From: a virus
Strand: one strand, 5' to 3'
DNA length: 22,524 bases
Virus record (IMG/VR): IMGVR_UViG_3300047457_001033
Location: 1 to 22,524 of that record
Part shown: one piece after another, positions 2,560 to 22,524 of the stretch
How the letters are laid out: each line of letters opens with the position of its first letter
How positions within the stretch are numbered: the stretch's first letter is position 1
Made by a program: the position numbers and the translations under genes
The notes under the pieces: model-generated
Databases searched by the model: none
Seen by the model: only the letters and a program-made list of their open reading frames with translations
What the model was told of the DNA's origin: nothing

Positions 2560-4439
2560 AGCAAAAGTTGGTTGAGTACTTGTTCAATCAATCTTCGGAT
2601 ATTGATCAAAGGGTTAAGTATTATTTGGACAAGATAGGTGATATCAACAGGTCTACCTACAAAAAAACAAACCTAACAATACCGGAATTCTCCAATAAAA
2701 CAGACCAATCGAGGTGGGAGAACGAGCAGATCAGGCGTACCAGGTATGGCCATGACGGGATCTGCGGTATGATGTACATGTACACCTACTTTTGGAAGAT
2801 GAAGTCAAAGAGTGGTGGACTTATATCCCCGGAGTTTCGCAGGTGCAATGCCGAGATGTTCAATCTAATCGAGTCGTGCCTCTATGGGGAATCGGATCTG
2901 TACCCGGGTAACCTTGGAAAAGGAGTCATATTGGTGGGTAGGCGAAGGTGGGGTAAGTCTTACAGCCTAGCCAACGCAATGTACACCACGGCTATTCACA
3001 ACCCTTACTCAGAAATAGGTTTTACATCCAAGACCGAGGAGGACATGAAGAAGTTCATGAACGACGTCCTCAAAACAGGCTACAACAACTTGCCGCAGTT
3101 TCTTCGCGCCACTTCGATGGCCGGTAACTCAGCGTCAAGGCTAGAACTAGCCAAGAAGATTCGCGACAAAGACGGCAACGTCAAAAAGGTAGGTATAAAC
3201 TCCGTGATATTTGGAAGATCCCCGGAGCCAACGGCCTTTGAGGGATCCGGTATGCGGCTTGTGGTTTACGAAGAGCCCGGCAAATGGATGCCTGGACAGC
3301 TTAAGCAGAACTGGTCTTATACCGAACCGGCATTGGCCGATGATGATGGTATTACGAGGAAGGGAGTACCCATATTGGCCGGAACCGCAGGGGATGCCAA
3401 CGAGAACGGAGATGACTTAAAGGAGTTTTGGTATGGAGCTGAAGGATATGGACTCATAAGGTATTTCGCTGCCGGGTGGAGCGGGTTTATGATTGACGAT
3501 GACCTTGGCAACGAGAACATCATTGAAGGCATAAAATACATCTTAAACGAAAGGGAGAAGAAAAAGCGTCAATCGATGCGTCGTTACTATGACTTCATTG
3601 TACAGTACCCCCTTGAGCCAGAGGAGGCTTTTATCCAGGTTGGCGAATCACCATTTGATACAGAGTTGATTAACAACAGAGTTGCTTATTTAGACAACAA
3701 TCCGTCGATGATTAAACGAGGTTTGTTCAGAAAGTCAAACGATAACGTGGTCTTTATACCCAAGGAAGACGGCCCGATAATGATCATTGAAGAGCCAAAG
3801 GGTGGGTGTATCTACGCGGCAGGTTGTGACCCTACGGATGGCGCCAAGGATAGCGGTGTAGGTTCTGATCTGTCATTCTTTATTGCCAAGGGTTCATCCT
3901 ATGACTCCGAGTCTGTGGAAAATGGGGCCATTATGCAGTACACTGACAAGCCCAAGGACATGAACGAGGCCTATGAGCAATGCGCCTTAGCGTTGGAATA
4001 CTACAGCAAATACAGCGTGTGTACGGTTCTTATCGAAAGAAACAGGGCTCGAATGATATCTTATTTTGAAGACAGGATGCTTCACAAGTATTTGGCCAAG
4101 AAACCGAGCAAGGTCGGCAAACTTATGCGACCCGGAACTACCATTGAGTACGGCATTTATATGGACGAACTAGTTAAGGATCAAATGATTGGCCTTATAG
4201 ACGATGACGTGAATGCTAACATTGAGCAGTATCATTTCGTTGATTTGCTGTCCGATATGTGCAACTACAACCCAAACAACAAGAAAAGAAAGTACGATAG
4301 AGTTGATGCTTGGGGCTTAACTTTGATTAATTTACGAACCGCATCCAAAAGTCGTTTGTTAAGAAAAAAGACGGATTCTAATCTTTTTGCAGGTTTAGAC
4401 TATGTCATGAGTAAAGACGGAAAACTACAACGTAAATGA
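2556..4439 (+). CDS. terL: Terminase large subunit (packaging ATPase and nuclease)
   Basis: This 627-aa protein has the terminase motor layout: an N-terminal ATPase that drives DNA into the procapsid and a C-terminal RNase H-like nuclease that cuts genome units. Walker A is GRRRWGKS at 128-135. Walker B is LVVYEE at 235-240, with the catalytic glutamate there. The coupling motif is probably AGTAGD at 275-280. Nuclease acidic residues are likely D425 in AGCDPTDG, E494 in VLIERNRA, and D581/D584 in DRVDAWG. All expected catalytic groups are present, so it should be active. The length is normal for the family. The start overlaps the upstream stop by 4 nt, and the portal ATG overlaps its own stop in the same way, so three proteins appear translationally coupled. 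Confidence 0.95.
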   Translation: MKQKLVEYLFNQSSDIDQRVKYYLDKIGDINRSTYKKTNLTIPEFSNKTDQSRWENEQIRRTRYGHDGICGMMYMYTYFWKMKSKSGGLISPEFRRCNAEMFNLIESCLYGESDLYPGNLGKGVILVGRRRWGKSYSLANAMYTTAIHNPYSEIGFTSKTEEDMKKFMNDVLKTGYNNLPQFLRATSMAGNSASRLELAKKIRDKDGNVKKVGINSVIFGRSPEPTAFEGSGMRLVVYEEPGKWMPGQLKQNWSYTEPALADDDGITRKGVPILAGTAGDANENGDDLKEFWYGAEGYGLIRYFAAGWSGFMIDDDLGNENIIEGIKYILNEREKKKRQSMRRYYDFIVQYPLEPEEAFIQVGESPFDTELINNRVAYLDNNPSMIKRGLFRKSNDNVVFIPKEDGPIMIIEEPKGGCIYAAGCDPTDGAKDSGVGSDLSFFIAKGSSYDSESVENGAIMQYTDKPKDMNEAYEQCALALEYYSKYSVCTVLIERNRARMISYFEDRMLHKYLAKKPSKVGKLMRPGTTIEYGIYMDELVKDQMIGLIDDDVNANIEQYHFVDLLSDMCNYNPNNKKRKYDRVDAWGLTLINLRTASKSRLLRKKTDSNLFAGLDYVMSKDGKLQRK

Positions 4440-6661
4440 GCGCAACAGCCATACAGACCACATTCCCCAATATGTGGGTAGAGGATAGCAAGAAAGGCGA
4501 AGACTACCACAAACAGGCCATTTTGGCAATTTTGGGGCAAACTGTTGCCAACGGATACATCCCCAACCTGTACATCGCTATGGACAGGAGCATGAATTTT
4601 TACAACGGGGACTACGATATTTCGAAGAAGTTTGACTTTTTACAGAAAGACTACAACGGCAGAAGCTTGCCGGCTTTGTGGATTAACTTTAACAAGATCC
4701 GCAACAAGATTAACTTGCTCGAGGGCGAGGTAGCCGTTCAGAAACTGGACGTAAGCTGCAAGACGCTGAATCGTGACGCGGTATCAAGAAAGATGAAAAA
4801 GCGTTCCAGCATCATTGCTGAGAAGATTATGATGTCTCTCATACCTCAGATTGATCCATCAGGTGAGTTGTTGCAAGTTAAGGATCCGGATTTTGTTCCG
4901 TATTCCGAAGAGGAACTAGACTTGTACATGCAGTCATCGTACAAGGAACCCATCGAAAGGGCAATGGACTCCATTTTGAAATACGAAATGGAAAGAACCA
5001 AATACGTTCAGACCAGGCTTTCTTTTTGGAGGGATATCCTTATTACGGGTAGAGCTGTAGGAAAGCATGAGCTTCGTTATGGAAGACCGCATATCCGCAG
5101 GGTTGACCCAAGGTACATCATAATTGATCCTTATGTTTTTGACGATAGCTTCAGCACGGCGTCATTTGTTGGTGAATGGAGATACGCCCCTGTAACGGAG
5201 GTGTGCGACACATACGGATTGACTTTGGAAGAGCTTGACAAGGTAAGGTTCGACCAGGGTTCTTGGCTTTGGGGAGGATACTCTCAAAATGGTAGCAACT
5301 TCTTGTTGCCCTACATAACGATCAACAACCAGTTCATGTGCTTGGTGTTTTATGCCGAATGGCGTGATATCCGCCAAGTAAGAGCCAAGGTTACTGTGGA
5401 TCAATACGGCGGAGAGCACGTCAAGATCTTAGGCAAGGAGGATAAAACCAAGCTCACAGACAAAGAAAAACAGGCCGGAGCCAAGATTGAGGAAAGGAAT
5501 ATTGAGACGATTCGCAAAGCCACGTTGATTGGGTCAAGCATCGTCAAAGAGTGGGGTGAGATGAACAACATCGTCCGCGATAAAGTAGATAACCCAGTCA
5601 GAGCCGAGTATAGCTACACGATTATCTGCCCTCAGTATGTAAACTTTAGGGGTGTATCCAAGGTAGAAGAAATGTCCGCATTGCAGGAGTTCAAAGACCT
5701 AATCATGTACACGATACAGCAGGAAATGTCAACGGCTGGTCGTAAGGGATTTGTTTATGACTTAAGGTTTAAGCCAGACAATCTGCAATTGCAAGACGTA
5801 ATGTATTACCTGAAGACTGCCGGTATTGCTTTCACAAGCAGTGGACAGGAGGGCGTTCCTCCAGCTGGTAACCCATTCCCCACCATTGACACGGGCATAT
5901 CCAACTCAATCACGCTCTACTTAAACCTGGCTAGTTACATCGACATGGAGATTGACAAAATCTCCGGTATCAACGATGCTAGGCAGGGTTTTCAAAAAGC
6001 TGACTCGTTGGTTGGAGTTTCTCAGATGGCAGTAACTCAAAGTAGTTTGATCACCCAACCTTTGAACAAGGCCTTCGAAATATTTGAAAACGAAATATTG
6101 CAGAAGTACGCTAATTACATTAAAACCATCTTCCCGTTCATCAAGGATCAATACGAGCCAGTAATGTCTCAAATAAATATTGACACCCTTGAGATAGACG
6201 AGGATGTGCCATTACAGGACTACGGAATCTTTGTTAGAATAAACTCTGACGACATCATGAACAATCGTCAGAAGTTTGAGAGCATGGTTATGACCGCTGT
6301 TCAATCAAACAGCGTTAACCTTGCCGAAGCAATGGTTCTGTTGTACACCCCGGATACCAAAGAAGCAGTGAAAAAGTTCTTATCTCTTGTAGACAGGAAA
6401 AATGCCGAGCAACAAGAAATGGCCGCACAGCAGGCTCAGATGGCTCAGCAACTGCAACAGCAAAAGATAATGGGCGATACTGAGACACAAATTGCCATAG
6501 ACAGGGCTCGTTCGGGGAACAAAGGAGAACTTCAAGTGTTAAGAGAACAGCTTAAGAACCAGACAATGCAACAGCAAGCTGAGCTTGATATGCTTAAGAA
6601 GGAACAAGAGCAGAATTTTCAGTTGATACTTGAAGCAATCAAAGAACAAAAACCCCAATAA
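4436..6661 (+). CDS. Portal protein
   Basis: This 741-aa protein follows the large terminase with an ATGA overlap, the classic place for the portal. The portal forms a ring at one capsid vertex through which DNA enters and leaves. Supporting features are NFYNGDYD at about 54-61 and the NKIRNKINLLEGEV segment at about 86-99, which resemble conserved N-terminal parts of large portals in crAss-like and other Bacteroidota podoviruses. A long mixed alpha/beta body follows. Residues about 655-741 are rich in Gln, Glu and Lys (QQAQMAQQLQQQK) and should form a long helix or coiled coil, like the barrel or C-terminal helices of large portals. The length is in the usual range for that group. The family was recognised by position and motif resemblance, not by a search. 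Confidence 0.88.
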   Translation: MSATAIQTTFPNMWVEDSKKGEDYHKQAILAILGQTVANGYIPNLYIAMDRSMNFYNGDYDISKKFDFLQKDYNGRSLPALWINFNKIRNKINLLEGEVAVQKLDVSCKTLNRDAVSRKMKKRSSIIAEKIMMSLIPQIDPSGELLQVKDPDFVPYSEEELDLYMQSSYKEPIERAMDSILKYEMERTKYVQTRLSFWRDILITGRAVGKHELRYGRPHIRRVDPRYIIIDPYVFDDSFSTASFVGEWRYAPVTEVCDTYGLTLEELDKVRFDQGSWLWGGYSQNGSNFLLPYITINNQFMCLVFYAEWRDIRQVRAKVTVDQYGGEHVKILGKEDKTKLTDKEKQAGAKIEERNIETIRKATLIGSSIVKEWGEMNNIVRDKVDNPVRAEYSYTIICPQYVNFRGVSKVEEMSALQEFKDLIMYTIQQEMSTAGRKGFVYDLRFKPDNLQLQDVMYYLKTAGIAFTSSGQEGVPPAGNPFPTIDTGISNSITLYLNLASYIDMEIDKISGINDARQGFQKADSLVGVSQMAVTQSSLITQPLNKAFEIFENEILQKYANYIKTIFPFIKDQYEPVMSQINIDTLEIDEDVPLQDYGIFVRINSDDIMNNRQKFESMVMTAVQSNSVNLAEAMVLLYTPDTKEAVKKFLSLVDRKNAEQQEMAAQQAQMAQQLQQQKIMGDTETQIAIDRARSGNKGELQVLREQLKNQTMQQQAELDMLKKEQEQNFQLILEAIKEQKPQ

Positions 6662-6664
6662 TTT

Positions 6665-7795
6665 ATGTCAGAAGAACTCGAGAATTTGGCTTTCGAAAAA
6701 TTAAACGAAGGCCACCAGCCTCCCATTGTCGGAGAGCAACAAAACGAACAGGTTGCGCTGAACTCCTTAGGGATTAACGACCAACAGTCGGCTAATCAAG
6801 AAGAACAGCAACAACAAGAGGATCCCGTTAACTTGGGAGATGAGCGGCAACAGGAAAACGAAGATTCCGCAAACGAAAGCAATCCCGAAAGTGTTAATGC
6901 AGATGAGAACTCTAACCAAGATCTTAGTTTCGACATCGATCTTGACGAGGGCACCGAGGTAAAGCCTGACGATTTTGTCAGTAAGTACCGAGGCACCTTT
7001 GAGGAGCTCGGATTTGAGGACATAAGAAGTCAAGATGACTTCGTCGCCAAGTTCAAGCAAATCAAAGGCGAGTTAGAAGAAGCGAAAGAATCTTCTAAAA
7101 CGGTCTTCGCCAACGATTTGATTCGAGAGGCAAATGAAATCATGAAGCAAGGCGGTGACTGGGTTAATTACCTCGGAATCGCCTCTTACGATTACGATGC
7201 TGTTCCGGATGTGGATTTGTTGTCGTATGAGTTAATGTCCGACTTCGACACGAAGGAGGAGCTTAATGACTACATTTCCTCCCTTGATGAGACCCAAATT
7301 CGCCTTAACGCGAAGAGGATACGAAAGGACCTCAAGATGCAGCAGGAGACTCAGAAGCAGGCTATTGCTTTGAAGGCTCAAAATCAGCAAAAAGCTTATG
7401 ATGAGAGTTTGCGCAAGGCAATAAACAGCGTAGATCGGGTTGACCGAGTTGTAGTCAAAGACCACGACAAAGTCAGAATCGAAAAAATGCTGACAAGTTA
7501 TAACGACAAAGCCAAAGCGACTGAGTTTCAAATCAAGCACTTCTTGAAGCCCAACGGAGAGCCGGATTTTCCTAAGATGGTGCAAAGCGCCTACAAACTG
7601 GAAATGTTCGACAAAGTACTTGAGTATGCGACACGCAGTGCTAAGAACTCAGGGAAAGCATCGGTAATCCAAAATCTGTCCAATGTGGAAAAACCTACTA
7701 ACACAAACATTGTTAGTACAACCCCACGGAAGGCAATGTCAATCGTAGAATCTGAAGTTGAAAGGCTTATGAAAGGTGAAAAACCACTATTCTAA
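6665..7795 (+). CDS. Putative capsid scaffold protein
   Basis: This 376-aa protein lies between portal and capsid genes, the usual place of scaffold or protease genes. Residues 1-110 are strongly acidic and rich in Gln and Asn (EEQQQQED, NEDSANESN), probably disordered. Residues about 110-320 are charged and helical. The C-terminal third has basic patches and ends in a short helix (VESEVERLMKGEKPLF), like the capsid-binding tail of many scaffolds. I see no Ser/His protease motif and no separate protease gene nearby, so scaffold removal is unexplained here. The start is 3 nt after the portal stop. The function is inferred from position, composition and helicity. Confidence 0.72.
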   Translation: MSEELENLAFEKLNEGHQPPIVGEQQNEQVALNSLGINDQQSANQEEQQQQEDPVNLGDERQQENEDSANESNPESVNADENSNQDLSFDIDLDEGTEVKPDDFVSKYRGTFEELGFEDIRSQDDFVAKFKQIKGELEEAKESSKTVFANDLIREANEIMKQGGDWVNYLGIASYDYDAVPDVDLLSYELMSDFDTKEELNDYISSLDETQIRLNAKRIRKDLKMQQETQKQAIALKAQNQQKAYDESLRKAINSVDRVDRVVVKDHDKVRIEKMLTSYNDKAKATEFQIKHFLKPNGEPDFPKMVQSAYKLEMFDKVLEYATRSAKNSGKASVIQNLSNVEKPTNTNIVSTTPRKAMSIVESEVERLMKGEKPLF

Positions 7796-10974: not shown

Positions 10975-11688
10975 ATGATAAATTCCGTATCACTGAATCA
11001 AGTCGTAAGCAATGCGATGATTTCCCTTGGATCAGAAAATGATTCAGACAAAATTTTATTTTACGAATGGGCAAATGATTGCTTGAGATCAATGGGTTTT
11101 GTTGACCTAAATATATCAACATTTACTGGAACTATATCAGATCCAACGGCGGTGACCGGTGGATCACTCGATATTTCTTCAATATCGCCGAGGGCAATGT
11201 ATATAAATAATATATCAGTGTCTTCTGGCGGGACTTCGTTGATTTACCCAACATTTAGTTCAAACTATTGGGGGAACACAAATAACATTTCAGCTCCAAG
11301 TCAAACAACAACGGCAACGGTTACCAGGGCCACCAGCCCTTCAACCCCAGTTTCTCCCGTATCGGATATTTTATACTTTTTTGGACTTCCTGGCACCGGA
11401 TGGACTAATGGCTCCGTAAGTTACTATTCAATGCCGGTTGACCCATACGGATCCCCACTCATACAAGAAACGTTTATTTCGCCAATTGTTGCTTATATAG
11501 ACTATAGACTTGCAAGGAGGAATCAATCATCCAGCCAAGGGTCAGTGACTTCTCAAGATGTCAATTTGCTCTATCAAATATACGACAGGGCAAAGAATGA
11601 AGCAATTCTAAAAAAGAATAGGCCTGACAAAATTGTTGTGCCAGGGATGGGCGTTGCTTCCGTTATTTTAAAGCATCCACTTCTATAA
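10975..11688 (+). CDS. Putative tail ring protein, first of two tandem paralogues
   Basis: This 237-aa protein shares its layout with the next gene. Its N-terminal helical motif (SVSLNQVVSNAMISLGSEND, residues 4-23) is followed by an FYEWANDCLRSMG helix at 29-41. A beta-rich middle ends in an SYYSMPVDPYGSPLI element near 153-167. A helical C-terminus contains IVAYIDYRLARR and NEAILKKNRPDK. Such small helix/beta/helix proteins encoded in tandem after the capsid genes often form rings between portal and tail. It starts 8 nt after the previous stop and ends 17 nt before the next start. Tail adaptor function is inferred; I cannot tie it to a specific ring of a known virion. Confidence 0.68.
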   Translation: MINSVSLNQVVSNAMISLGSENDSDKILFYEWANDCLRSMGFVDLNISTFTGTISDPTAVTGGSLDISSISPRAMYINNISVSSGGTSLIYPTFSSNYWGNTNNISAPSQTTTATVTRATSPSTPVSPVSDILYFFGLPGTGWTNGSVSYYSMPVDPYGSPLIQETFISPIVAYIDYRLARRNQSSSQGSVTSQDVNLLYQIYDRAKNEAILKKNRPDKIVVPGMGVASVILKHPLL

Positions 11689-11705: not shown

Positions 11706-12416
11706 ATGCCAATAACAAACACAGTAAGCTTAAATGAAGTTGTATCCAGCGCGTCATTAGCGTTGGGTATGGACGAAAATGATAGGTATAGAGTTGTATT
11801 TTACGATTGGGCTTATCAAGCACTTTCAGACATAGGACTTATGTCCTTAAATATAACAAATTCCACCGGAGCGATCATTACATCTCCGTTTAATTATTTC
11901 CCGATTCCCGGTTCTTGCGTATACATAGACTCAATTGCTATACGAAAAGGAGCAAATGGCTCCGTATGTTATCCGATTTTTGACTCAAACTATTGGGTTA
12001 GCGTTCCGGATGACGACCAAACGATGTACGACAAAGACTATGTCGTGAGCCGACAGGGAAGCAACTTAATTTTTAGTAGCACTATAATCGAAAATGGATT
12101 TACTGACGTAATACTTAGGTATTACGCAATACCATTAGACGCCAACGGAAGCCCACTGATACCTGAGTTCTACATGAGGGCCATCATGGCTTATATAGAG
12201 TACATGTATGTAAAAAGTCAAAGGCACAAAGACAGGTCTTCCGTTCCATTAAGTGAAATACAATTGTTTTATCAACAATGGCTATCCCTCAAATCGGATG
12301 CGATTTCAAGGAGGAACAAGCCGGAAAAACCAGAAATTGAGGCCGCTATTGCGCAATGGATTACGATGTTGCCAAATCAGCGAAGACTTATGAGGGAGTC
12401 CAAAAACAACGTGTAA
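11706..12416 (+). CDS. Putative tail ring protein, second of two tandem paralogues
   Basis: This 236-aa protein matches the previous gene in order and motifs: TVSLNEVVSSASLALGMDEN at residues 6-25, FYDWAYQALSDIG at 32-44, RYYAIPLDANGSPLI near 138-152, then AIMAYIEYMYVKSQ and SDAISRRNKPEK in the C-terminal helices. About half of the first 45 residues match by eye. The two therefore arose by duplication or belong to one family that builds successive rings. The C-terminus differs, with a longer basic tail (NQRRLMRESKNN). The stop overlaps the next start by one base (TAATG, 12414-12418), pointing to coupled translation of the large tail protein. Confidence 0.7.
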   Translation: MPITNTVSLNEVVSSASLALGMDENDRYRVVFYDWAYQALSDIGLMSLNITNSTGAIITSPFNYFPIPGSCVYIDSIAIRKGANGSVCYPIFDSNYWVSVPDDDQTMYDKDYVVSRQGSNLIFSSTIIENGFTDVILRYYAIPLDANGSPLIPEFYMRAIMAYIEYMYVKSQRHKDRSSVPLSEIQLFYQQWLSLKSDAISRRNKPEKPEIEAAIAQWITMLPNQRRLMRESKNNV

Positions 12417-15400
12417 TGCAAGATAGGAATCAAGGGGCGAATTACGAGAAAAAAAGTCAGTCCTTTGAGAAGGGGCTGAATACTGATGTTTCCGCTGCAT
12501 TTCAGCCTGATGGCACGTACAGGGACGCCATAAATATGGAGCTTACTTCTTTTGGTGATCAAAATGTGATCAACCAAATAAAATCAGCCTTGGAGATTTC
12601 AGCACAAGAAATCGTCAGCGGAGGGGATATTACGGCGGTAAACATATTGGGGTATACGCCATCAAAGGCATTAAACACCAGCGGCGTCATCGTTGATGGG
12701 TTTGTAGTGTATGTGCTCGGTAGAGTTTTGTCAAACGAGCCACAATGCGGAATATACTTTTTTGAACAAAGCGGGAACTCTGAGACTGGAACGATTCATT
12801 TAGTTTCAAACGACTCAAATCTTTTCTTTCCTGAAACAGGCAGTATAGACTCTTTTTTCACCCAAATAAATGACAAGATGGAGGTGTTTTTTACGGATTT
12901 CAATAATGAAATACGTAGCATCACCATGAACATGAATTTATGGCCTTTGTCTTCAACGCAGTTAAGCGCTCAATCTTTGTCGTTGAGCACTTCAAGCATA
13001 TCTGTTACAAGTATAGGAGGTGATGGGTCATTGTTAGCCGGTACGTATCAGTTTTCTTTTAGACTAAGAAACTCTTTGACGTTAAGGTACACTGATTGGT
13101 CAGTGTTTACAAATCCAATACCGATTATACCGCAATCATATACAACGGGATCAACAAATGCTTACTACGGAGGAAATGCTGGATATCCAACAACAAGGAG
13201 TATATCTTTTACGGTACCACGAAGTGCTTTAGAAACATCCGCGTATTACGATATTGTCGACATTGCTACAATAAAGAATAACGATGGATCTTACACAGAA
13301 CAAACGCTAGCTTATATAAGCAGCGTCAATAATACTGCTGTTAGCGGAAACCTAGCGATTACGTACAGCGGATCTGAAAGCGAAAGTACTTTACCTATTT
13401 CCGAAATCGTTGTTCCCGACGTAGCGATAAATACAGTAAAGACAATTGTTGAAAAAGATGGCAGGATTATCGCTGGAAACATAAAGTATTACGATAGGAG
13501 AGTACTCGACTCAGAAGCAACAATTACAGACGCAAAAACAATAAGGGTCGCGGTTGACTATCAAGATCCAATAAATACCGAAAAATACAGGGGATATTGG
13601 AGAGATGAGGTCTATAGATTTGGCGTTACATATCACGACAAATTCGGCAACTGGTCTCCCGTAAAGCCACTTAATTTTGCTACTTTCAACAAAAGAGATA
13701 GAACATCGTCGTCCGGAACTTCATGTACTATAGTCACAGGCGCGGGAAATGGCATAAATTACGACAGAAACACATTAACGCTTCAAGCGGCTAGTAATTG
13801 GGATACATCAAAATACTTTGCTGGAGGATCTGCCTTATTTAGAAATGTAATTGTATCAGGAATATCCTTTCCCGACTTTACGTCCGACATTATATCTGTT
13901 GCCACGACTGCGCTTACGGTGCTTGTTCCGGCAAAGATGTGGGCAAATTATCAAACCTTTCAATCGTCTGGAGCGACAGGATCAATGACGGCATTCCCAC
14001 TGAAAGGAAATAATTATAGTCATTCCTCCGATGGTTTCACGTGGAAGTTCCCAAAAAGGGAACACATTGGTGTCACAAGTACAGCAACTACAGGCACTTA
14101 TGGTACATACGAGCACGGAACGTATTCGCTATTAACAACAACTGGTGCTGGAATAACCGCTGCACAAGCGCTTGGACTTGGCGTCACTATAACCAACCAC
14201 CCGTCTTGGGCTGTAGGAATGGCTATTGTCAGAATGGAGCGTGATAAGGATATAATATACCAATCCCCCATAATACCTGCTTCATTGAGTGTTGGCAATA
14301 TAACTCCTGGTAAAAACTTGGGTGCACCTGTTTCAACTTTAGATTACCAGGTCATAAATGGAGTTGGTGAACTCGACCACTTGTCCCCAAAAGTCCTAAA
14401 GCTAGGAGCGGCGAGGAATATGGAGATATTGACGATAAAAACCTCTTCTTATGCTTCAGGGAACACCACAGGGTATGCTGATGTATATCAACTTCCGTCA
14501 TATCAGCCGTTAAACAGCGTACCAGAAAACAGGCTTATGTGGAAAAAATGTTTTTTCCCTGCGGTTGACTACGTGTATAATTATCTTGGAACACCTCTGG
14601 TTGCTACACCGGATGGCGAAAACAAAAAGGTTGAAATCATTGATGTCTGTGGGTTTAAGTTATCAAATTTGACGCCAATTGATCCAATAACAACTGTGAC
14701 CCAAACAGGAGGGATGTCGGTAACCAAACCGTCAGGATACGTGGAGGCTAGAATTTATCAGTGTGATACACCTACACTGCACTGGTACAATAATGCTTCA
14801 GGCTACACGAATATGCGGACACAAACCGCAACTGGAATACTCGGTAGTTATGAAGACACAAAATGGAGAAAAATAAATGAGTCAATTTTAGTCGCAAACG
14901 GAGTTTACAGCTCCTCGTATGTTGGCTCTAACAAGAGAGCCAATATACAAACAAGACTTTCCTCTACCGGTGCTGATAAGTACATTTACGCCACAACGTT
15001 GATGGACTTAGACAACCTGTTCACAACAGACAGTGTGATTCCTATTCCCAAAGGTTCACCCAAAATATTGCTAAATGTTCCAGAAAAAGGGACTGGCGGT
15101 CAGTCGACCAGGTCTGCCGCTGAGTACCTAATTGCAGGTGAAGAGCTCACGAATCAACAAAAGAACTCGTCAATAGATTCTTCTGATACGCAGTCAATCA
15201 ACTTGTTTTCTTCTGGAATAGATTATCAGAGAAATCTAGCTTTAACTCTGAACCAACCTTTAGACGATCCGCTGTACATGCTTACGGCTCATTACTCAAG
15301 TGAGGGAGTTGGTCAATTTGGCGTTATACCAAGAGATACCACAAACACTAGTGCAACAGGAACAATGGCGACTGTGCCATTTGCTGGATACCTAAACAAC

Positions 15401-17368
15401 TATAATCCATCAACAACAGGAAACAAAGAGTTAAGGAATGGATTAATACACGCGAATCCATTTATGAATATCACATACAATGGATCGGTTCTACCAACTG
15501 GCACCACTCCAGAAGGACTAATAAGCTTCCCGTATTTAATACCATCTTCTCCAATTAACGCATCAAATTCGAGGATTTATTATGCTCCAATAGAAAACGT
15601 TGACGCCGGGGTTCATTATGGGTATGCTGGAGGAAATACGACTGGATCATGGAACAAAGTCGCAAACTCAACCGGTGATGTTCAGCAAGCTCTTTACGTT
15701 GCGAACCTAAGGAATGGCAAATCTGACTTCAGATATGGAGACCCTAATTCAATAGACGAGTACATATTCACCGGTGCATATGCAAAAATTGCCGCCACAG
15801 GAACGCCAATATCGCTTTCTATCTGGGGAGGAGATTGCTTTGTGTCAAAATACAGGTACAAAGTAAATGACGAGTACAACATGCCGGCTTATTACAAGCC
15901 TACACCGTCTGGTACATACGGACTGGATTTTGATTTAAGAGGCAGATGCACATCTTTTGATTCAGCAGGAGTTGCTGGCGTAAAGGTGTTTAAGACTGGA
16001 ATAAAAAAGAGCCCAGAGTACATCGAGTTGTATATGGAGTCGGAAGCCAACGCCTTTTACAACAGCGAGGAAAACAGATACCCATATTTTAACGCGGTTA
16101 CCGCTACGGCAGGGACTGAATCTCAATATCAAGCTGACGCTTTTTACGATTACAACCCAGGATATTCTATTCAAAATCTACCCAAAAAATTCTTTTCAGA
16201 GAACAGGAATATAGCGAAATCAGAGTTTTATCCGGCAAGGGTAGTTTATTCAGATAAAAGGAGTGAAAACTCGGTTTATGATGGTTTCTCTAGGTTCAGA
16301 TTAGAGAGCTTTTATGATATGGGGGAGAAATACGGTAAGATATCTAGGATAGTCCTTTTAGGCGGAGATAACTCCGTCATTGTTGGCCAAGATAACGCCA
16401 TTTCTTTGCTTTATGTGAATAAGTCTTTGACTACTCTTCAAGATAACAATTCATTGGCAGTTCAATCCGGCGTATACATTAGCGAAGAAACGCCCCCTAA
16501 GTATTTTACGACAAATTATGGAGCCGAATTATTGAGGTGCATGATTTCAACTGAGTCGGGGGTATATGTGCTTGACACAAAAAAGGGAACTCTTTTATCG
16601 ATAAGCGATCAACTGAGGATTCTGCCACTCGGTAGAATGGAGGAATATTTTAGGTTTAATTTCAGTAATTCGGATTTTCCGTGGAAAGAAAACGAAATAC
16701 AGTTGAGTTACGACTCTGTAGAGAAAACCCTTTATATTATTGGCGGCATACTAACAGATAATCAATACCCCAAAATCGATAATTTCCAATGGCTTTCGTA
16801 TAACGCAAAAATTGACTCATTTATTTCAAGACTATCCTGGTCGATAAATGGACAAGGGCATGGAGGAAAATACTATAATAAGCCATACTTTCATTTTGAC
16901 TTAAATGGTACCACATATGTGATTCAATGCCATAGTCCAAATAATGCTCACGACGCCATAGATTTTCATGTCAACAAGTGGAAGGGAGACAACAGCTTCT
17001 TGAAGTTGTTAACTGGGCAACACATAAACGCCGTAGATGCTTCCATAGAGTATGTTATAAATCACAACAAGGGAGAACCAAAAGTGATAGATATTGTTGG
17101 TATAAATGGGCAATCTCCGTTTAGCAGTTTTGAAGTTGAAGTTTACAATGATACATCCGGGTTCAATCCGCTCGACACTGGCGTTAAAACAACGAACATT
17201 AACAATAGATTCGGTATGTCATCAACGGCATTTCTTAGGGATGCTGCAACCAATAGGCGCCTTACCGGAACATACGGAGTGGTGAAATTGACATTCAGTA
17301 GCGCAATATCAAAACTGATATCCATAAAAACGGCATTCACCCAATTTAGAAAATTACTAAGATGGTAG
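12416..17368 (+). CDS. Large tail protein, crAss-like stabilization/muzzle type
   Basis: I choose the ATG at 12416, which overlaps the previous stop as TAATG, giving 1650 aa. An in-frame ATG at 12356 would add 20 residues and overlap the upstream gene by 61 nt. Residues about 15-45 (FEKGLNTDVSAAFQPDGTYR, then DAINME) match from memory the N-terminal signature of crAss-like tail stabilization or muzzle proteins (KGLNTDxSxxxxPDGTYRxAxN). The middle is Thr/Ser/Gly-rich beta structure. The region about 1370-1520 has propeller-like strand pairs such as YDSVEKTLYIIGG and YNAKIDSFISRLSW. It ends in KLLRW without a membrane segment or enzyme motif. It probably forms the main body of a short tail below the ring proteins. 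Confidence 0.82.
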   Translation: MQDRNQGANYEKKSQSFEKGLNTDVSAAFQPDGTYRDAINMELTSFGDQNVINQIKSALEISAQEIVSGGDITAVNILGYTPSKALNTSGVIVDGFVVYVLGRVLSNEPQCGIYFFEQSGNSETGTIHLVSNDSNLFFPETGSIDSFFTQINDKMEVFFTDFNNEIRSITMNMNLWPLSSTQLSAQSLSLSTSSISVTSIGGDGSLLAGTYQFSFRLRNSLTLRYTDWSVFTNPIPIIPQSYTTGSTNAYYGGNAGYPTTRSISFTVPRSALETSAYYDIVDIATIKNNDGSYTEQTLAYISSVNNTAVSGNLAITYSGSESESTLPISEIVVPDVAINTVKTIVEKDGRIIAGNIKYYDRRVLDSEATITDAKTIRVAVDYQDPINTEKYRGYWRDEVYRFGVTYHDKFGNWSPVKPLNFATFNKRDRTSSSGTSCTIVTGAGNGINYDRNTLTLQAASNWDTSKYFAGGSALFRNVIVSGISFPDFTSDIISVATTALTVLVPAKMWANYQTFQSSGATGSMTAFPLKGNNYSHSSDGFTWKFPKREHIGVTSTATTGTYGTYEHGTYSLLTTTGAGITAAQALGLGVTITNHPSWAVGMAIVRMERDKDIIYQSPIIPASLSVGNITPGKNLGAPVSTLDYQVINGVGELDHLSPKVLKLGAARNMEILTIKTSSYASGNTTGYADVYQLPSYQPLNSVPENRLMWKKCFFPAVDYVYNYLGTPLVATPDGENKKVEIIDVCGFKLSNLTPIDPITTVTQTGGMSVTKPSGYVEARIYQCDTPTLHWYNNASGYTNMRTQTATGILGSYEDTKWRKINESILVANGVYSSSYVGSNKRANIQTRLSSTGADKYIYATTLMDLDNLFTTDSVIPIPKGSPKILLNVPEKGTGGQSTRSAAEYLIAGEELTNQQKNSSIDSSDTQSINLFSSGIDYQRNLALTLNQPLDDPLYMLTAHYSSEGVGQFGVIPRDTTNTSATGTMATVPFAGYLNNYNPSTTGNKELRNGLIHANPFMNITYNGSVLPTGTTPEGLISFPYLIPSSPINASNSRIYYAPIENVDAGVHYGYAGGNTTGSWNKVANSTGDVQQALYVANLRNGKSDFRYGDPNSIDEYIFTGAYAKIAATGTPISLSIWGGDCFVSKYRYKVNDEYNMPAYYKPTPSGTYGLDFDLRGRCTSFDSAGVAGVKVFKTGIKKSPEYIELYMESEANAFYNSEENRYPYFNAVTATAGTESQYQADAFYDYNPGYSIQNLPKKFFSENRNIAKSEFYPARVVYSDKRSENSVYDGFSRFRLESFYDMGEKYGKISRIVLLGGDNSVIVGQDNAISLLYVNKSLTTLQDNNSLAVQSGVYISEETPPKYFTTNYGAELLRCMISTESGVYVLDTKKGTLLSISDQLRILPLGRMEEYFRFNFSNSDFPWKENEIQLSYDSVEKTLYIIGGILTDNQYPKIDNFQWLSYNAKIDSFISRLSWSINGQGHGGKYYNKPYFHFDLNGTTYVIQCHSPNNAHDAIDFHVNKWKGDNSFLKLLTGQHINAVDASIEYVINHNKGEPKVIDIVGINGQSPFSSFEVEVYNDTSGFNPLDTGVKTTNINNRFGMSSTAFLRDAATNRRLTGTYGVVKLTFSSAISKLISIKTAFTQFRKLLRW

Positions 17369-17817
17369 ATCCAAGCCTTTATAATCCGATATCCATGCCT
17401 AATAAGTACGATTACTTAAAGGCAGCTGGAGATGAAGCGTATGATCGAGAAAAGGCAGAAAGAAGCGCTAGGGGCTCCGGTATAGGCTCGATTTTAGGCA
17501 CTGTCTTAGGGGCAGCGTCTTTTCTGATACCTGGCGTTGGAGTTCCTCTTGGATTAGGCATTATGGGAGCGGCCGGAACTGTTGGTGGATCAATTGGTGG
17601 ATTAACAGGAGGACGCGGAGCCAGAAGAGCGAAGGAGGCCGCTATAGCCGATGCTACGGGCAAGTACAATCAAAATTACGGGTACTTAATGTCTGAGAGA
17701 ACTAGCGCTATTGAGGACGCTATTAACGAGGCCAGATCTGAAATGTACACGAACAGGATACAATCTATGAGAAGAAATGTTATACCAAGTAGTGCGGAAT
17801 ACCTTAAATTTGTATAA
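17362..17817 (+). CDS. Small protein with a Gly-rich hydrophobic segment, putative internal virion protein
   Basis: This 151-aa protein overlaps the end of the large tail gene by 7 nt. Residues about 41-84 form a long glycine- and alanine-rich hydrophobic stretch (IGSILGTVLGAASFLIPGVG, then VPLGLGIMGAAG), flanked by a charged helical N-terminus and a basic helix starting at GARRAKEA. This is the pattern of membrane-active proteins that phages of the T7/P22 type eject into the cell envelope (T7 gp14-like). The rest (105-151) is helical with several Arg. There is no signal peptide, so the hydrophobic part is more likely inserted after ejection than during synthesis. The role is inferred from pattern and from its position in a run of similar genes. 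Confidence 0.65.
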   Translation: MVDPSLYNPISMPNKYDYLKAAGDEAYDREKAERSARGSGIGSILGTVLGAASFLIPGVGVPLGLGIMGAAGTVGGSIGGLTGGRGARRAKEAAIADATGKYNQNYGYLMSERTSAIEDAINEARSEMYTNRIQSMRRNVIPSSAEYLKFV

Positions 17818-17819
17818 AA

Positions 17820-18617
17820 ATGGCTACAGAGCAAGATTTTTATCAGTACCTAATTGACTCAAAAAGGGTGAACCCATGGATATCATATGGAGTCCCGGTT
17901 GTAGGCAGTATCGCTTCTCTTATCGCCTCAGAACAAGCCCGTAGACGGGCTCAGCAAGCTTTGAGCGGTCTTTCTAGACCAACTATGGGTAGATTTAGGC
18001 AGGACCCGTTGTTAGCTCAGAGAATAGCCTCTCAAATGAGAATGGTTGATCAGCCCAGGATGGGTTATCAGCGAGCTTTTAGTGAACAGGCCGCTAGGGA
18101 TATGGCAAGAGCGAGGGATGTCGCGGCAAATCTAGGCGGAGGAAGAGGATTGGCTTATCTCCAACAGGCTTCTTCAAATGCCGCTCAAAATGAAAGAGCC
18201 GGAATTTTTTCCGATATGGAGCAACAAAGGCTAAGCAGGGCGGAACTTGACAGACTCATAGGCATGAGAAATCAAGAGCTTCAACAAGAAAGGGCGTTAG
18301 ATGCTCAAAGGTATGCCCAAGAAATGCAAAACTATATCAACGAGAGAAGAGGATTACAGGCAGATATTTCCCAACAAAGAGGGAACACATGGGCGACGAT
18401 TGGAAATTTAGTGCAATCGATACCCGGAATGGTTCAGCAATATTACAGTTCAAAAGCCGCAGAAAAAATTCTTAAAGGGATTCAAGGGAATGATCCGGCT
18501 GGTAAATCAGGCAAAGTCGGTCCCGCGTCGTTCGATCCATCATATCGTCCAATTTATGATTTCTCTGGGCAATACGATCCTTTTAGGGGGTATGATGTTT
18601 ACGATATTTTTGAATAA
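17820..18617 (+). CDS. Gln/Arg/Ala-rich helical protein, putative internal virion protein
   Basis: This 265-aa protein starts 2 nt after the previous stop. A hydrophobic segment at about 20-37 (WISYGVPVVGSIASLIA) is followed by a long helical region rich in Gln, Arg and Ala (about 40-190, for example QRIASQMRMVDQPRMGYQRA and MRNQELQQERALDAQRY). The C-terminal part has a second weaker hydrophobic stretch (TIGNLVQSIPGMVQQYY near 195-212) and an aromatic-rich tail ending in YDVYDIFE. Such Ala/Gln/Arg-rich helical proteins with hydrophobic patches are typical of phage internal core or ejection proteins. I see no enzyme motif. Sequence-level family recognition is absent, so only the class is suggested. 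Confidence 0.65.
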   Translation: MATEQDFYQYLIDSKRVNPWISYGVPVVGSIASLIASEQARRRAQQALSGLSRPTMGRFRQDPLLAQRIASQMRMVDQPRMGYQRAFSEQAARDMARARDVAANLGGGRGLAYLQQASSNAAQNERAGIFSDMEQQRLSRAELDRLIGMRNQELQQERALDAQRYAQEMQNYINERRGLQADISQQRGNTWATIGNLVQSIPGMVQQYYSSKAAEKILKGIQGNDPAGKSGKVGPASFDPSYRPIYDFSGQYDPFRGYDVYDIFE

Positions 18618-18627
18618 ATAAAACATA

Positions 18628-19842
18628 ATGGATCAAACAGATCTTTCTCCTAGAGTGGCACAAGAAACAGCCGGGTACGGCTTTCAAGTGCCAATTTTCA
18701 GAATGAATCAAGGTATAAATGCATCGATGGCTAGCCCTCAGGCTAGGCAGTCAATGGTCCCGGTAGATTTCGCCATGGAAGACTTTAGGGTCAGTCCAGA
18801 AGATTATCAACTGAGCCTTAAGGAAGAAGCAAGAGCCGGATTAGATCAGGGATTGCTTGAGTTGAACGACCTCGTATCAAAGGCGGCTATGGCTGGAATC
18901 GATGCCACAAAAATAGATATGTCCAACCCTGCTAGCATAGCGGTAAACCAAATGTTTAGAAAAAAGTTTCAAGACGTAAAGAATCTGTCTAAAGACATAA
19001 GGACCGGTGTAGCACAACAAAAAATTGACTTAGATAGAAAGGCTCAAGAACGGGCTGAAGAGCAGTATGGTTGGGCAAAATCAAATATGGAATATAACAG
19101 GGATGTTGTTAGACCACAAGCCGCGAGGGATCAGCTTAGGCAGAACTTAGAGTATGAAGAAAAACAAGTTGACAAAAAGTTTGAAAAACTGATTTCCCCA
19201 TTTTATACCCAGGCGAAATCCTTGCTCAATATGGATTTCAATACTGTTGACCCAAAGAACTTGGGCGCAATAAAGAAAAGAAAAGCGGATTTGAGTAAGA
19301 GTTTAACAGAAATTCTTAAAAATCCAGATTTAGAAGATGAATTGAGGGATAAGGTAACCGACTTTATGTCGCAAATAAACAACGTTACTCCGCTTCAAGC
19401 AAGAGGAGACGGAGGTGGAGGTGGAGGTAAAGGTGTTGACGCGTATGATTTGGATATAGCCAAGCAAGGACTTTTCACTCAAAAAGCAACATTAAAAGAC
19501 AGCCAAGGAAAAGAGTCAGAAGCTGTTGGATTTGTAATTACCTCTGATGGTAAATTTAAAGTTTCCTTAAAACGCCCAAAGGCGCCATCAAAGCCGACAT
19601 TTGCTCAACTCGCTGGCGGAGATCCAATTGGATACGACAATGAACTAAAAGTATTAGACCCAAACAATAGACAAGATTTTCTTGATATAAACAAGATAAT
19701 TCAGGAAGGATATGGCGACGGAGATGATGGGAAAGAGGCGAAGGCGTGGCTATTAGGTATAGTCAGGAAGCTAGTAACCACATCACAGGGATCAGGTAGC
19801 TCTGCGAGTGTTAAAAAGGAGATGGCCACAGGGTCAAAGTAA
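18628..19842 (+). CDS. Helical protein with Gly linker, putative internal virion (cargo) protein
   Basis: This 404-aa protein starts after the A/T-rich leader AAAACATA, with no Shine-Dalgarno motif. Residues about 60-255 are charged and helical with coiled-coil character (DRKAQERAEEQYGWA, EEKQVDKKFEKL). A glycine linker (GDGGGGGGKG, 260-269) leads to a smaller C-terminal domain (about 270-404) with short beta strands (AVGFVITSDGKFKVSLKRP) and a helix (AKAWLLGIVRKLV). I see no catalytic motif. Context, between two proteins of ejection type and a giant partial protein, suggests a virion-internal protein delivered with the genome. The function is otherwise unknown. Confidence 0.65.
   Translation: MDQTDLSPRVAQETAGYGFQVPIFRMNQGINASMASPQARQSMVPVDFAMEDFRVSPEDYQLSLKEEARAGLDQGLLELNDLVSKAAMAGIDATKIDMSNPASIAVNQMFRKKFQDVKNLSKDIRTGVAQQKIDLDRKAQERAEEQYGWAKSNMEYNRDVVRPQAARDQLRQNLEYEEKQVDKKFEKLISPFYTQAKSLLNMDFNTVDPKNLGAIKKRKADLSKSLTEILKNPDLEDELRDKVTDFMSQINNVTPLQARGDGGGGGGKGVDAYDLDIAKQGLFTQKATLKDSQGKESEAVGFVITSDGKFKVSLKRPKAPSKPTFAQLAGGDPIGYDNELKVLDPNNRQDFLDINKIIQEGYGDGDDGKEAKAWLLGIVRKLVTTSQGSGSSASVKKEMATGSK
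19411..19428 (+). repeat. Three tandem GGAGGT hexamers inside a coding region
   Basis: GGAGGT is repeated three times and encodes the glycine run of the linker in the 404-aa protein. The repeat is in frame, so gain or loss of a unit would only alter linker length by two residues. It is also the strongest Shine-Dalgarno-like sequence in a region otherwise lacking them, but no start codon follows at useful distance in a good frame. Confidence 0.75.
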
Positions 19843-19873: not shown

Positions 19874-22524
19874 ATGCCGCGTGTACCTTACAAACAATTT
19901 GCGATAAACATTGGTGAAAACTACCCTAATTTTAGGAGAGAAAAGGGGGAAGACGACTTTTCGTTTGTACAAAGATTTGTAGCAGACGTACCTGAATACA
20001 GGAATTGGGTGGACTACACTGATGAATCTACGCTAGAAAATCCCAACCCCGTCAAGCCATCCGTAAACAGAAAAGGAATTTCCGAGCCAACTCAAGCGAA
20101 AGCGCTTGGTCAGAACCTCAATCTGTTTCAGGGTGCAACTGACATACCGCCGTACCTACTCGAGAAACAAAAGCCATTGAGGTCATTCCAAGATGAAGTT
20201 GGCGAGAAGTATCGGTATCAAACAGTTGATGCAGTCATAGACTTCGCGAACAAATCAAGAAAGACCGGTTCCCCTAAAATTAATGAAGAAACGATAGGAT
20301 TTGACGACATTTATAAATTCGTAAGGAGCAATGCAGTTAAGGGAAACCTCGGGTCAGATGCGCCATCCATTAAAATCGGTAATATTGAAGCGGCAAACGA
20401 ACTATTGCTTAGAGCAAAGGAAAAGGCTGTAAAAAAAGCTTACGGTGAGAATGCTGACCTTGACTACATACTCAAGGAGGCAGATCCGTTAGAATCATCG
20501 TATGTCGATGCATTGAGCAGGTCAAAGTCTTTAAAACTCATGGCTGAGCAATACAGGGCCGCTGGATATCAGGACGTCTACAATGACTTCAGCAATCAAG
20601 CAAATACCCTTGAATCATACGCAAATGCATTGGGTTCTGACCCTGACTTCCAAAAGAAGATTGACATAAAGAATAAATACATACCTCAATTTCAAAGAGC
20701 ACAAAAGGAATCTCAAAGGCTAGCCGATGATATAAAAACAACGGCTCTTTTGAAAAAACTAGATAGCGACATTAATGTCATGGTTATGCCCGGTTTGAAA
20801 TATGGGAGAGAAGCAATAAGGGATTACATTGGTGGTACATCTTATTGGATTTCTGATTTATTTGGTTCCGATAGAGCGAAGAGTTTCATACAAAACAACC
20901 CGTACTTATCTAGCGACCCAATGTTTGCGGATGAGGAATTTGGGGCTCCCGCTGAACCCGGGAAGCCATTCAATTGGGACAAGGTTCCTGGGTTTATGTA
21001 CAAGCAGACCATAAATATGTTGCCGGCATTGGCCGCTGGTTTTTTCACTGGTGGAGCGTCAACGGTTGCAAGAGCTGGAGCTATATCCGAGGCTGCGGCA
21101 GGATTAGGTTTGGGTCTTGAATCTGTTGCTACGGCGAAGAATGTATTGAACACGATTAAGTTCGGATCCAGAGCTGCCGGTGTAGCAGTTACATATTACG
21201 ATGATGCTATAAGGGAGTTAGACCAAGCCGCAGCTAATTCGGGTGTTCAAGTAAATCCGTCCCAAAAGTCAGTGCTTGCCGCATTAGCCACGGCAAAAAC
21301 GGCTGCTATTGAATCCCTAAATCCATTGGATGAAGTCCTTAGAACAAATGTTCTAAAGGGATTTGCTAAATCAGCAATGAGTGCCTTAGCGACAGGAAAG
21401 GGTTTTAGATCCGCTATGTATAATGGGGCAAACTCGTTGCTTTATGCAACAAAAGTTTATGGGCTAGAAACAGGGGAGGAGTTGCTTGACGAGACAGTAC
21501 AAAGGGGTCTGAATGCCATTTCCAATGAGGCTCTTGGGCTTAACAAGACTGATTCGGAATTGCCGGATTCTATTCCAACTTTAGGTGAATACGGGAATAT
21601 AGCGCTGAACACATTGGTTGCCACGGTTCCGTTTATGGGGGCAGGAACATATGCTGCTTCGTCTAATTTCAAAAACGACGTATTCCACTCGGTTTCTAGG
21701 CAAGGACTAGCAGAAGACTTTGTCGCAAAAATAGAAGAAAATAGGGACAACATTGGATTTAAAAAGGCGAACTTATTATCCAATGAGTTGCAGAGAGTAA
21801 ACAACGTTTACAAAGGCATACCTCAAGAATACGATGAAGATGCGGCTAGAGCGATAGCAGATAAGTCATTGCAGATTGATGCATTGAATGAAAAGATAAA
21901 AGGCGCTCCATCGGAAGTCATACGAAAAAGGCTAACGGATGAGAAAAAAGCATTGGAAGACGATATACTTGTTATTGAACAACAACAGCAAGGTGCATTG
22001 TCAAAAGGCATTGAGCCGCCAGTGTATAATCCTCAGGCTGAAGTGAAAGCACCAGCGTCTGATATAGAAGGTGATTATTCCCCCGTTTTGGGTTCAGATG
22101 GTGAGTATGTACCGTTTTTGGGCGTGGAGGATGACTATGTGCTAAATCTTGTCGAACAGAGAATTGAGCCTATTATGAATCCATTGGCAGAGAGAATGAG
22201 GAATGCAGAGGAGATTGATGTGGCTGAAATTGAGGATGTCGCCTCAAAGATGATCGATGCGGTTGGAGATGGGAACTTTAATTCTCCATCATTAGGTTTA
22301 AACAAAGATGAAAAGAAAATCATTGTTGATTTGGTATCATCTCAAATTGATAATTTACTTAACTATGAATTCGCAACAACTACTACTACTGAACAAACTG
22401 GAAAAGCAAGACAGGTTAAAGGTGTTGTCAGAACTGCTAAACCAGGGTTACCGCAGAAAGTCTCCGCGGACCGATTCTTCGGAACCCCAGTCACCAACCC
22501 TCAAACCGGAGAGAAAGGATTCCT
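19874..22524 (+). CDS. Giant virion-internal (cargo/ejection) protein, N-terminal 883 residues (partial)
   Basis: I translated this frame codon by codon from the ATG at 19874 and found no stop up to the right edge, so the gene continues beyond the window. The start follows 31 nt of A/T-rich spacer. The first 340 residues are mainly helical and charged. Residues about 382-418 are hydrophobic (MLPALAAGFFTGGAS then AAAGLGLGLES). Residues about 445-560 hold amphipathic helices including GLETGEELLDETVQ. A second hydrophobic segment lies at about 576-595 (IALNTLVATVPFMGAGTYAA). A coiled-coil-like stretch and an acidic linker follow. This resembles large internal proteins of T7-like or crAss-like phages that enter the cell during infection. 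No DxDxD polymerase motif or lytic transglycosylase motif appears in the visible part. Confidence 0.8.
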   Translation, partial: MPRVPYKQFAINIGENYPNFRREKGEDDFSFVQRFVADVPEYRNWVDYTDESTLENPNPVKPSVNRKGISEPTQAKALGQNLNLFQGATDIPPYLLEKQKPLRSFQDEVGEKYRYQTVDAVIDFANKSRKTGSPKINEETIGFDDIYKFVRSNAVKGNLGSDAPSIKIGNIEAANELLLRAKEKAVKKAYGENADLDYILKEADPLESSYVDALSRSKSLKLMAEQYRAAGYQDVYNDFSNQANTLESYANALGSDPDFQKKIDIKNKYIPQFQRAQKESQRLADDIKTTALLKKLDSDINVMVMPGLKYGREAIRDYIGGTSYWISDLFGSDRAKSFIQNNPYLSSDPMFADEEFGAPAEPGKPFNWDKVPGFMYKQTINMLPALAAGFFTGGASTVARAGAISEAAAGLGLGLESVATAKNVLNTIKFGSRAAGVAVTYYDDAIRELDQAAANSGVQVNPSQKSVLAALATAKTAAIESLNPLDEVLRTNVLKGFAKSAMSALATGKGFRSAMYNGANSLLYATKVYGLETGEELLDETVQRGLNAISNEALGLNKTDSELPDSIPTLGEYGNIALNTLVATVPFMGAGTYAASSNFKNDVFHSVSRQGLAEDFVAKIEENRDNIGFKKANLLSNELQRVNNVYKGIPQEYDEDAARAIADKSLQIDALNEKIKGAPSEVIRKRLTDEKKALEDDILVIEQQQQGALSKGIEPPVYNPQAEVKAPASDIEGDYSPVLGSDGEYVPFLGVEDDYVLNLVEQRIEPIMNPLAERMRNAEEIDVAEIEDVASKMIDAVGDGNFNSPSLGLNKDEKKIIVDLVSSQIDNLLNYEFATTTTTEQTGKARQVKGVVRTAKPGLPQKVSADRFFGTPVTNPQTGEKGF

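Follow-up and report, generated by a model that had tools for sequence, protein, structure and literature searches.

What is encoded by the giant open gene at the right edge of this viral DNA, and what might its missing part do? The window, that is, the whole stretch of 22,524 nt analyzed here, is the entire IMG/VR record IMGVR_UViG_3300047457_001033, which has no sequence beyond the right edge. A reading frame of 883 codons extends on the + strand from an ATG at 19874 to the final base without a stop, exactly as the first-pass annotation had described it. This openness is far above chance, as homologues in other records are open across the same region in the same frame. Because the right edge coincides with the record end, the truncation is due to assembly. 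No part of the record lies outside the window to extend the contig, and neither the other IMG/VR records nor a scan of genome contigs yielded the same virus covering this region.

The gene context points to a crAss-like phage. The window encodes a terminase (terL), a portal protein with 20-25% identity to Crassvirales portals, a major capsid protein (MCP) matching SU10_MCP (E 4e-10), and a muzzle protein recognized by Pfam (Table 1), which confirms the annotated placement of the giant gene behind a muzzle gene. The window thus contains the crass-type muzzle, portal, and MCP that characterize a Crassvirus virion. Three small cysteine-free genes separate muzzle and giant. The 151-aa product of the first of these gave weak PHROG matches to tail-associated lysin, tape measure, and internal virion proteins. 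In complete relatives, the giant gene ends the rightward structural operon and is followed by convergent genes, and the order of muzzle, small genes, and giant was also found in the complete circular 60.85-kb phage MW202828. The 3,859-aa giant of the latter (L085:741-12320) occupies the equivalent operon position, contains one cysteine, and lacks similarity to the window giant; its label "reticulocyte binding/rhoptry protein" is almost certainly spurious. Elsewhere in the operon, the 237-aa product of 10975-11688 in the ring-protein region shares 28-33% identity with its relatives, compared to 50-70% for its neighbors, and this low identity persists where the portal is 95-97% identical.

Table 1. 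Features of the window, with coordinates, strand, and basis of assignment (KD, Kyte-Doolittle hydrophobicity)
Feature	Coordinates	Strand	Basis or remark
Portal protein	4436..6661	+	phrog_6547, E 6e-69; anchor for finding relatives
Muzzle protein, 1,670 aa, 9 Cys	12356..17368	+	PF25731 crAss_MUZ, E 1.3e-46
Cys-free 151-aa gene	17362..17817	+	Gly-rich hydrophobic segment, KD 1.8
Cys-free 265-aa gene, probable cargo partner	17820..18617	+	
Cys-free 404-aa gene, probable cargo partner	18628..19842	+	residues 4-142 alone kept in most relatives
Giant cargo gene, 5' part, 883 codons	19874..22524	+	open to edge; homologues of 2,524-3,001 aa; 0 Cys
Putative N-terminal segment of ~48 residues	19874..20017	+	alignment and model, pLDDT ~65-80
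First hydrophobic zone, weak, Gly/Ala-rich, residues 380-419	21011..21130	+	KD 1.18, 1.09
Second hydrophobic segment, weak, residues 576-594	21599..21655	+	KD 1.22; counterpart in relatives 1.3-1.5
Start of conserved block, residues ~753-823 (RMRNAEEID..EIEDV...)	22130..22342	+	56-60% identity vs 10-38% upstream
Final 182 nt of the record	22343..22524	+	90% DNA identity to G001

The portal protein was used to gather 28 related records, and a homologue of the 883 residues was present in 7 of the 19 records searched. Four homologues are complete (P0007, 2,978 aa; P0002, 3,001 aa; P0003 and P0004, 2,524 aa; records G001, G003, G004, and G007), and all four genes close with a true stop before the convergent genes. 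They continue for 1,681 to 2,165 residues beyond the equivalent of the window edge, with enzyme-like modules in their central part. The prediction of further domains past the edge is thereby supported by the relatives, and the early stop that would have spoken against it was not observed. Judging from these relatives, the window protein (P0001) is expected to be the first third of a cysteine-free protein of ~2,500-3,000 residues, with about two thirds of the length missing from the window's copy.

Protein identity differs between the genes of the operon. To the same records, it amounts to 82-83% for the portal, 71-73% for MCP, 51-52% for the muzzle, 33-43% over partial length for the 404-aa protein, and 25-34% for the giant, which makes the latter the fastest-diverging gene of the structural operon. 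Divergence is uneven within the giant. Compared to P0007, the part ahead of residue ~750 shares 10-38% identity, followed by 56-60% and then by 90% across the final 33 residues. At the DNA level, the best long stretches elsewhere reach 73-74% identity to G001, and the gene matches no DNA over its first 2,469 bases, in contrast to the final 182 nt. The simplest reading is that these last bases likely mark a recombination (mosaic) junction. Because such a segment is common to different viruses, it plausibly explains why the assembly stopped at this edge.

The 883 residues themselves gave no significant match in Pfam, PHROGs, or NCBIfam and no match of weight among PDB sequences. Tail or fiber homology, which would have pointed to an external tail protein, was not observed for P0001 in Pfam or PHROG. 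Structure predictions were of too low quality to be interpreted, with a mean pLDDT of 47.5 for the N-terminal part and 42.7 for the C-terminal module; the low-confidence all-alpha model is consistent with the annotated helical, charged sequence. The best-modeled portion of the N terminus is the first ~48 residues, with a weakly conserved pattern Y..(F/L)...I..(Y/F)(P/G)...(L/F)...W/F...P.Y. The two hydrophobic segments that the first-pass annotation had listed are present and weak: in 19-residue Kyte-Doolittle windows, the best scores (at residues 380-398 and 576-594) stay below usual transmembrane thresholds, and relatives are hydrophobic at equivalent positions.

The C-terminal end of the full-length protein is shared more widely than its N-terminal part. 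Counterparts of the last ~780 residues occur at the C terminus of proteins of 2,159-3,201 aa in another ten records (L063-L073 minus the duplicate L065), with a probability of 99.8% and E 3e-28 in profile comparison (hhalign). All ten records also have muzzle and portal matches, with two of the muzzle matches below the family cut-off. Among the L063-L073 giants, identity amounts to 37-86% in the C-terminal part, and sequences upstream are mostly unalignable. In L067:2553-11533, the C-terminal module is a separate 668-aa gene right behind a cysteine-free 2,326-aa gene, so that the giant is naturally divided in two here.

Comparison of near-identical relatives revealed where the full-length proteins differ. 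P0002 and P0003 are 93.5% identical across residues 1-1045 and 96.5% across the last ~1,213 residues, yet the 744 central residues of the former and the 261 of the latter bear no relation to each other. The P0003 cassette is bounded by an exact direct repeat of 24 nt, with copies at positions 3165 and 3945 of the gene. It is the sole exact repeat of >=16 nt in the P0003 gene, and a near-identical copy is found at the right cassette boundary in P0002. The two copies in P0003 lie 780 nt, i.e., 260 codons, apart and in-frame; therefore, exchange or loss of the cassette would preserve the reading frame.

The cassettes resemble enzyme modules. The P0003 cassette is similar to ART-PolyVal (PF18760; E 9.3e-4, profile positions 20-137 of 140), at 20.4 bits, below the cut-off of 31.2. 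Searching at the genome level with this family found nothing. P0007 contains a GNAT-like stretch (Acetyltransf_7, E 2.6e-3; phrog_10691, E 6e-8) also occurring in a 3,912-aa protein of Ruegeria phage 45A6, as well as a second, weakly matching module (phrog_6170, E 8.5e-6); a module of P0007 is common to a small protein of Bacteroides phage DAC16. Residues 1229-1656 of P0002 have counterparts in Dolichospermum phage Dfl-JY45 (2,387-aa protein, E 4e-32) and in MW202675 (847-aa protein, E 3e-27); the gene of the MW202675 protein adjoins portal, M15-peptidase, and type-I-restriction-like genes. The ART-like and GNAT-like assignments may serve as weak to moderate leads. Shared ancestry of the two ART-like cassettes, one in P0003 and one in P0007, was considered, and the comparison gave it no support.

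These modules bear on the three enzyme guesses made for the unseen part. The weak ADP-ribosyltransferase and GNAT matches favor a toxin-like or host-modifying domain. A peptidoglycan hydrolase found no domain match in the homologues. The profile phrog_7348, labeled "endolysin," does match P0002, in a stretch of a 2,564-position giant profile that is presumably not a lysin. The central modules also bear on the possibility that the giant serves solely as an ejected trans-envelope DNA channel, comparable to T7 gp15/gp16, its variable center being a spacer or an adaptation to host range. Helical composition, weak hydrophobic zones, absence of cysteine, and small partner genes would all suit a channel; however, the centers look like enzyme or effector modules from phage giants unrelated to this one and are replaced wholesale, and we consider a channel-only function unlikely.

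The third guess, an RNA polymerase, deserves attention for positional reasons. A muzzle gene, two or three small cargo genes, and a giant is also the arrangement that leads to gp47 in crAss001, so the window giant might be the positional counterpart of gp47 and a subunit of the crAss-like virion RNA polymerase/transcription block rather than an effector carrier. Crass-like RNA polymerases are extremely divergent, and the block occurs in every group except Epsilon (PMC7886860); moreover, a separate giant RNA polymerase-like gene was not seen in the 71-kb relative. Nevertheless, the complete homologues lack a D[FYW]DxD-type catalytic motif. Their sole DxDxD-like run, FGDDDED, lies within an acidic/basic linker in P0002 and P0003 and is missing in P0007, and P0001 has no DxDxD motif. 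Profiles revealed no similarity to the gp47 family (hhalign probabilities below 1%), and a search for gp50, run without a positive control, found nothing. Furthermore, wholesale central replacement between near-identical relatives would be unexpected for a polymerase core. A BLAST match of P0001 to crAss001 gp47 (E 0.002, 87 residues) was not confirmed by profiles and was set aside as coiled-coil noise. On the motif and profile evidence, the virion RNA polymerase was dropped as leading idea, and we now regard it as quite unlikely.

A further property of the giant is its lack of cysteine. The four post-muzzle genes of the window encode 1,703 aa without a single cysteine, where ~11 would be expected from the other 13 window genes (36 in 5,645), with a probability of about 2e-5. 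No cysteine occurs in full-length P0002, P0003, or P0007 either, cassettes included, nor in 10 of the 11 C-module giants listed. In the exception, L063:2636-11725, six cysteines are all located within the final 63 residues, in a small DUF5763-like domain.

Ejected proteins of well-known phages served as controls. T7 gp15 and gp16, P22 gp7, gp16, and gp20, and the N4 virion RNA polymerase (vRNAP) are devoid of cysteine, and T7 gp14 has 1 in 196 residues. For crAss001, we counted 2 in gp45, 0 in gp46, 1 in the 2,341 residues of gp47, 1 in the 1,349 of gp49, and 3 in the 2,412 of gp50. Most other virion proteins of the control genomes contain 0.4-1.7% cysteine; cysteine-free exceptions outside the ejected set are the N4 coat protein, the P22 scaffold, and P22 gp26. 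The lone cysteine of the crAss001 gp47 family lies 2-4 residues from the C terminus in 4 of 4 members, and phage cr1_1 encodes a 4,551-aa giant that likewise has a cysteine near the C terminus, plus one more (loci L086:5120-12145, L088:2501-9664, L089:1556-8980, L090:6007-10923, and L091:3178-16833). A C-terminal cysteine is thus kept in giants that are otherwise free of this residue. Absence of cysteine from N4-like vRNAPs was noted in 2010, and passage through the tail or periplasm was proposed as the reason (PMC3715699). We found no statement of a broader pattern in the open-access literature searched; its extension beyond N4-like polymerases is what the present survey adds.

The first-pass annotation had proposed an ejected crAss-like virion cargo protein, which is in line with the gene position and the near-total absence of cysteine; ejection itself is a step that we infer. 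Cysteine absence is also not exclusive to the cargo block, since the 376-aa gene at 6665-7795 outside it is cysteine-free, too. This would suit a structural virion protein or a non-virion late protein that is not ejected. Such an identity appears very improbable, considering that cysteine depletion extends across many thousands of residues as in proven ejected proteins and that known cargo genes occupy this position (PMC10172136). The 376-aa gene itself is situated between portal and major capsid genes, its homologues in relatives (379 and 378 aa) also lack cysteine, and its product is possibly a scaffold-like or an additional cargo protein.

We therefore favor, as the probable explanation, that the giant is an ejected crAss-like cargo carrier of polyvalent type with an exchangeable central effector slot. 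The protein of ~2,500-3,000 aa would be packed inside the virion and ejected into the host before or with the DNA. Its N-terminal ~1,050 and C-terminal ~1,200 residues would constitute a carrier common to the phage group, and the region between them would be a slot for swappable modules acting on the host after entry. Following polyvalent-protein logic, ADP-ribosyltransferase-like, GNAT-like, and other modules may fill this slot in relatives, and a module of this kind may be present in the window's own copy. Modules would be swapped by recombination within conserved or repeated in-frame linkers. The entire chain, modules included, would have been purged of cysteine, probably in connection with unfolded passage through the tail and the oxidizing periplasm.

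Among known systems, polyvalent proteins (Iyer et al. 2017, PMC5512222) share with the giant their very large size, variable architecture, and a gene beside late virion genes, here behind terL, portal, MCP, and muzzle. In the relatives, the likeness extends to modules common to other polyvalent or giant mobile-element proteins (Dfl-JY45, MW202675, and 45A6) and may extend to unrelated enzyme-like modules in one chain, ART-like and GNAT-like among them, of which the 883 residues of the window show none. In contrast to polyvalent proteins, the modules of the giant homologues score under curated cut-offs and occupy one central slot between conserved ends. An HExxH zincin motif was not found in the complete homologues, and the survey of polyvalent proteins in phages and conjugative elements contains no crAss-like example (PMC5512222). 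The cargo proteins gp45, gp46, gp47, gp49, and gp50 of phi-crAss001 (PMC10172136) are similarly encoded directly behind the muzzle, large, and nearly cysteine-free, but the giant has neither detectable sequence or profile similarity to gp47 nor a gp50-type DFDxD motif. N4-type vRNAPs resemble it in size (about 3,000-3,500 aa) and in having no cysteine, and are ejected from the virion in N4, whereas motif and family searches detected no polymerase motif in the giant homologues. The giants of the muzzle-bearing L063-L073 phages have the C-terminal module in common with it, are cysteine-free but for one, and vary upstream; their N-terminal carrier part, however, is unrelated.

Non-DNA phage cargo is largely unknown because these proteins outpace homology searches by fast evolution. 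Absence of cysteine together with gene position flags candidate ejected proteins that are beyond the reach of homology, and aligning near-identical relatives reveals where the putative payload modules lie. It is tempting to speculate, though we advance this tentatively, that crass-like phages hold a dedicated exchange slot within an ejected giant protein, with conserved delivery ends, swappable effector cassettes between in-frame linker repeats, and a no-cysteine rule for the whole chain to which each newly acquired module would have to conform. If this is true, the slot protein would be a phage-borne, intracellularly delivered analogue of polymorphic toxin cassettes, and cysteine depletion would mark ejected phage proteins in general at the sequence level, allowing candidates to be picked easily from any phage genome. 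The slot would then offer an inventory of enzymes directed at the host in abundant Bacteroidota-type phages.
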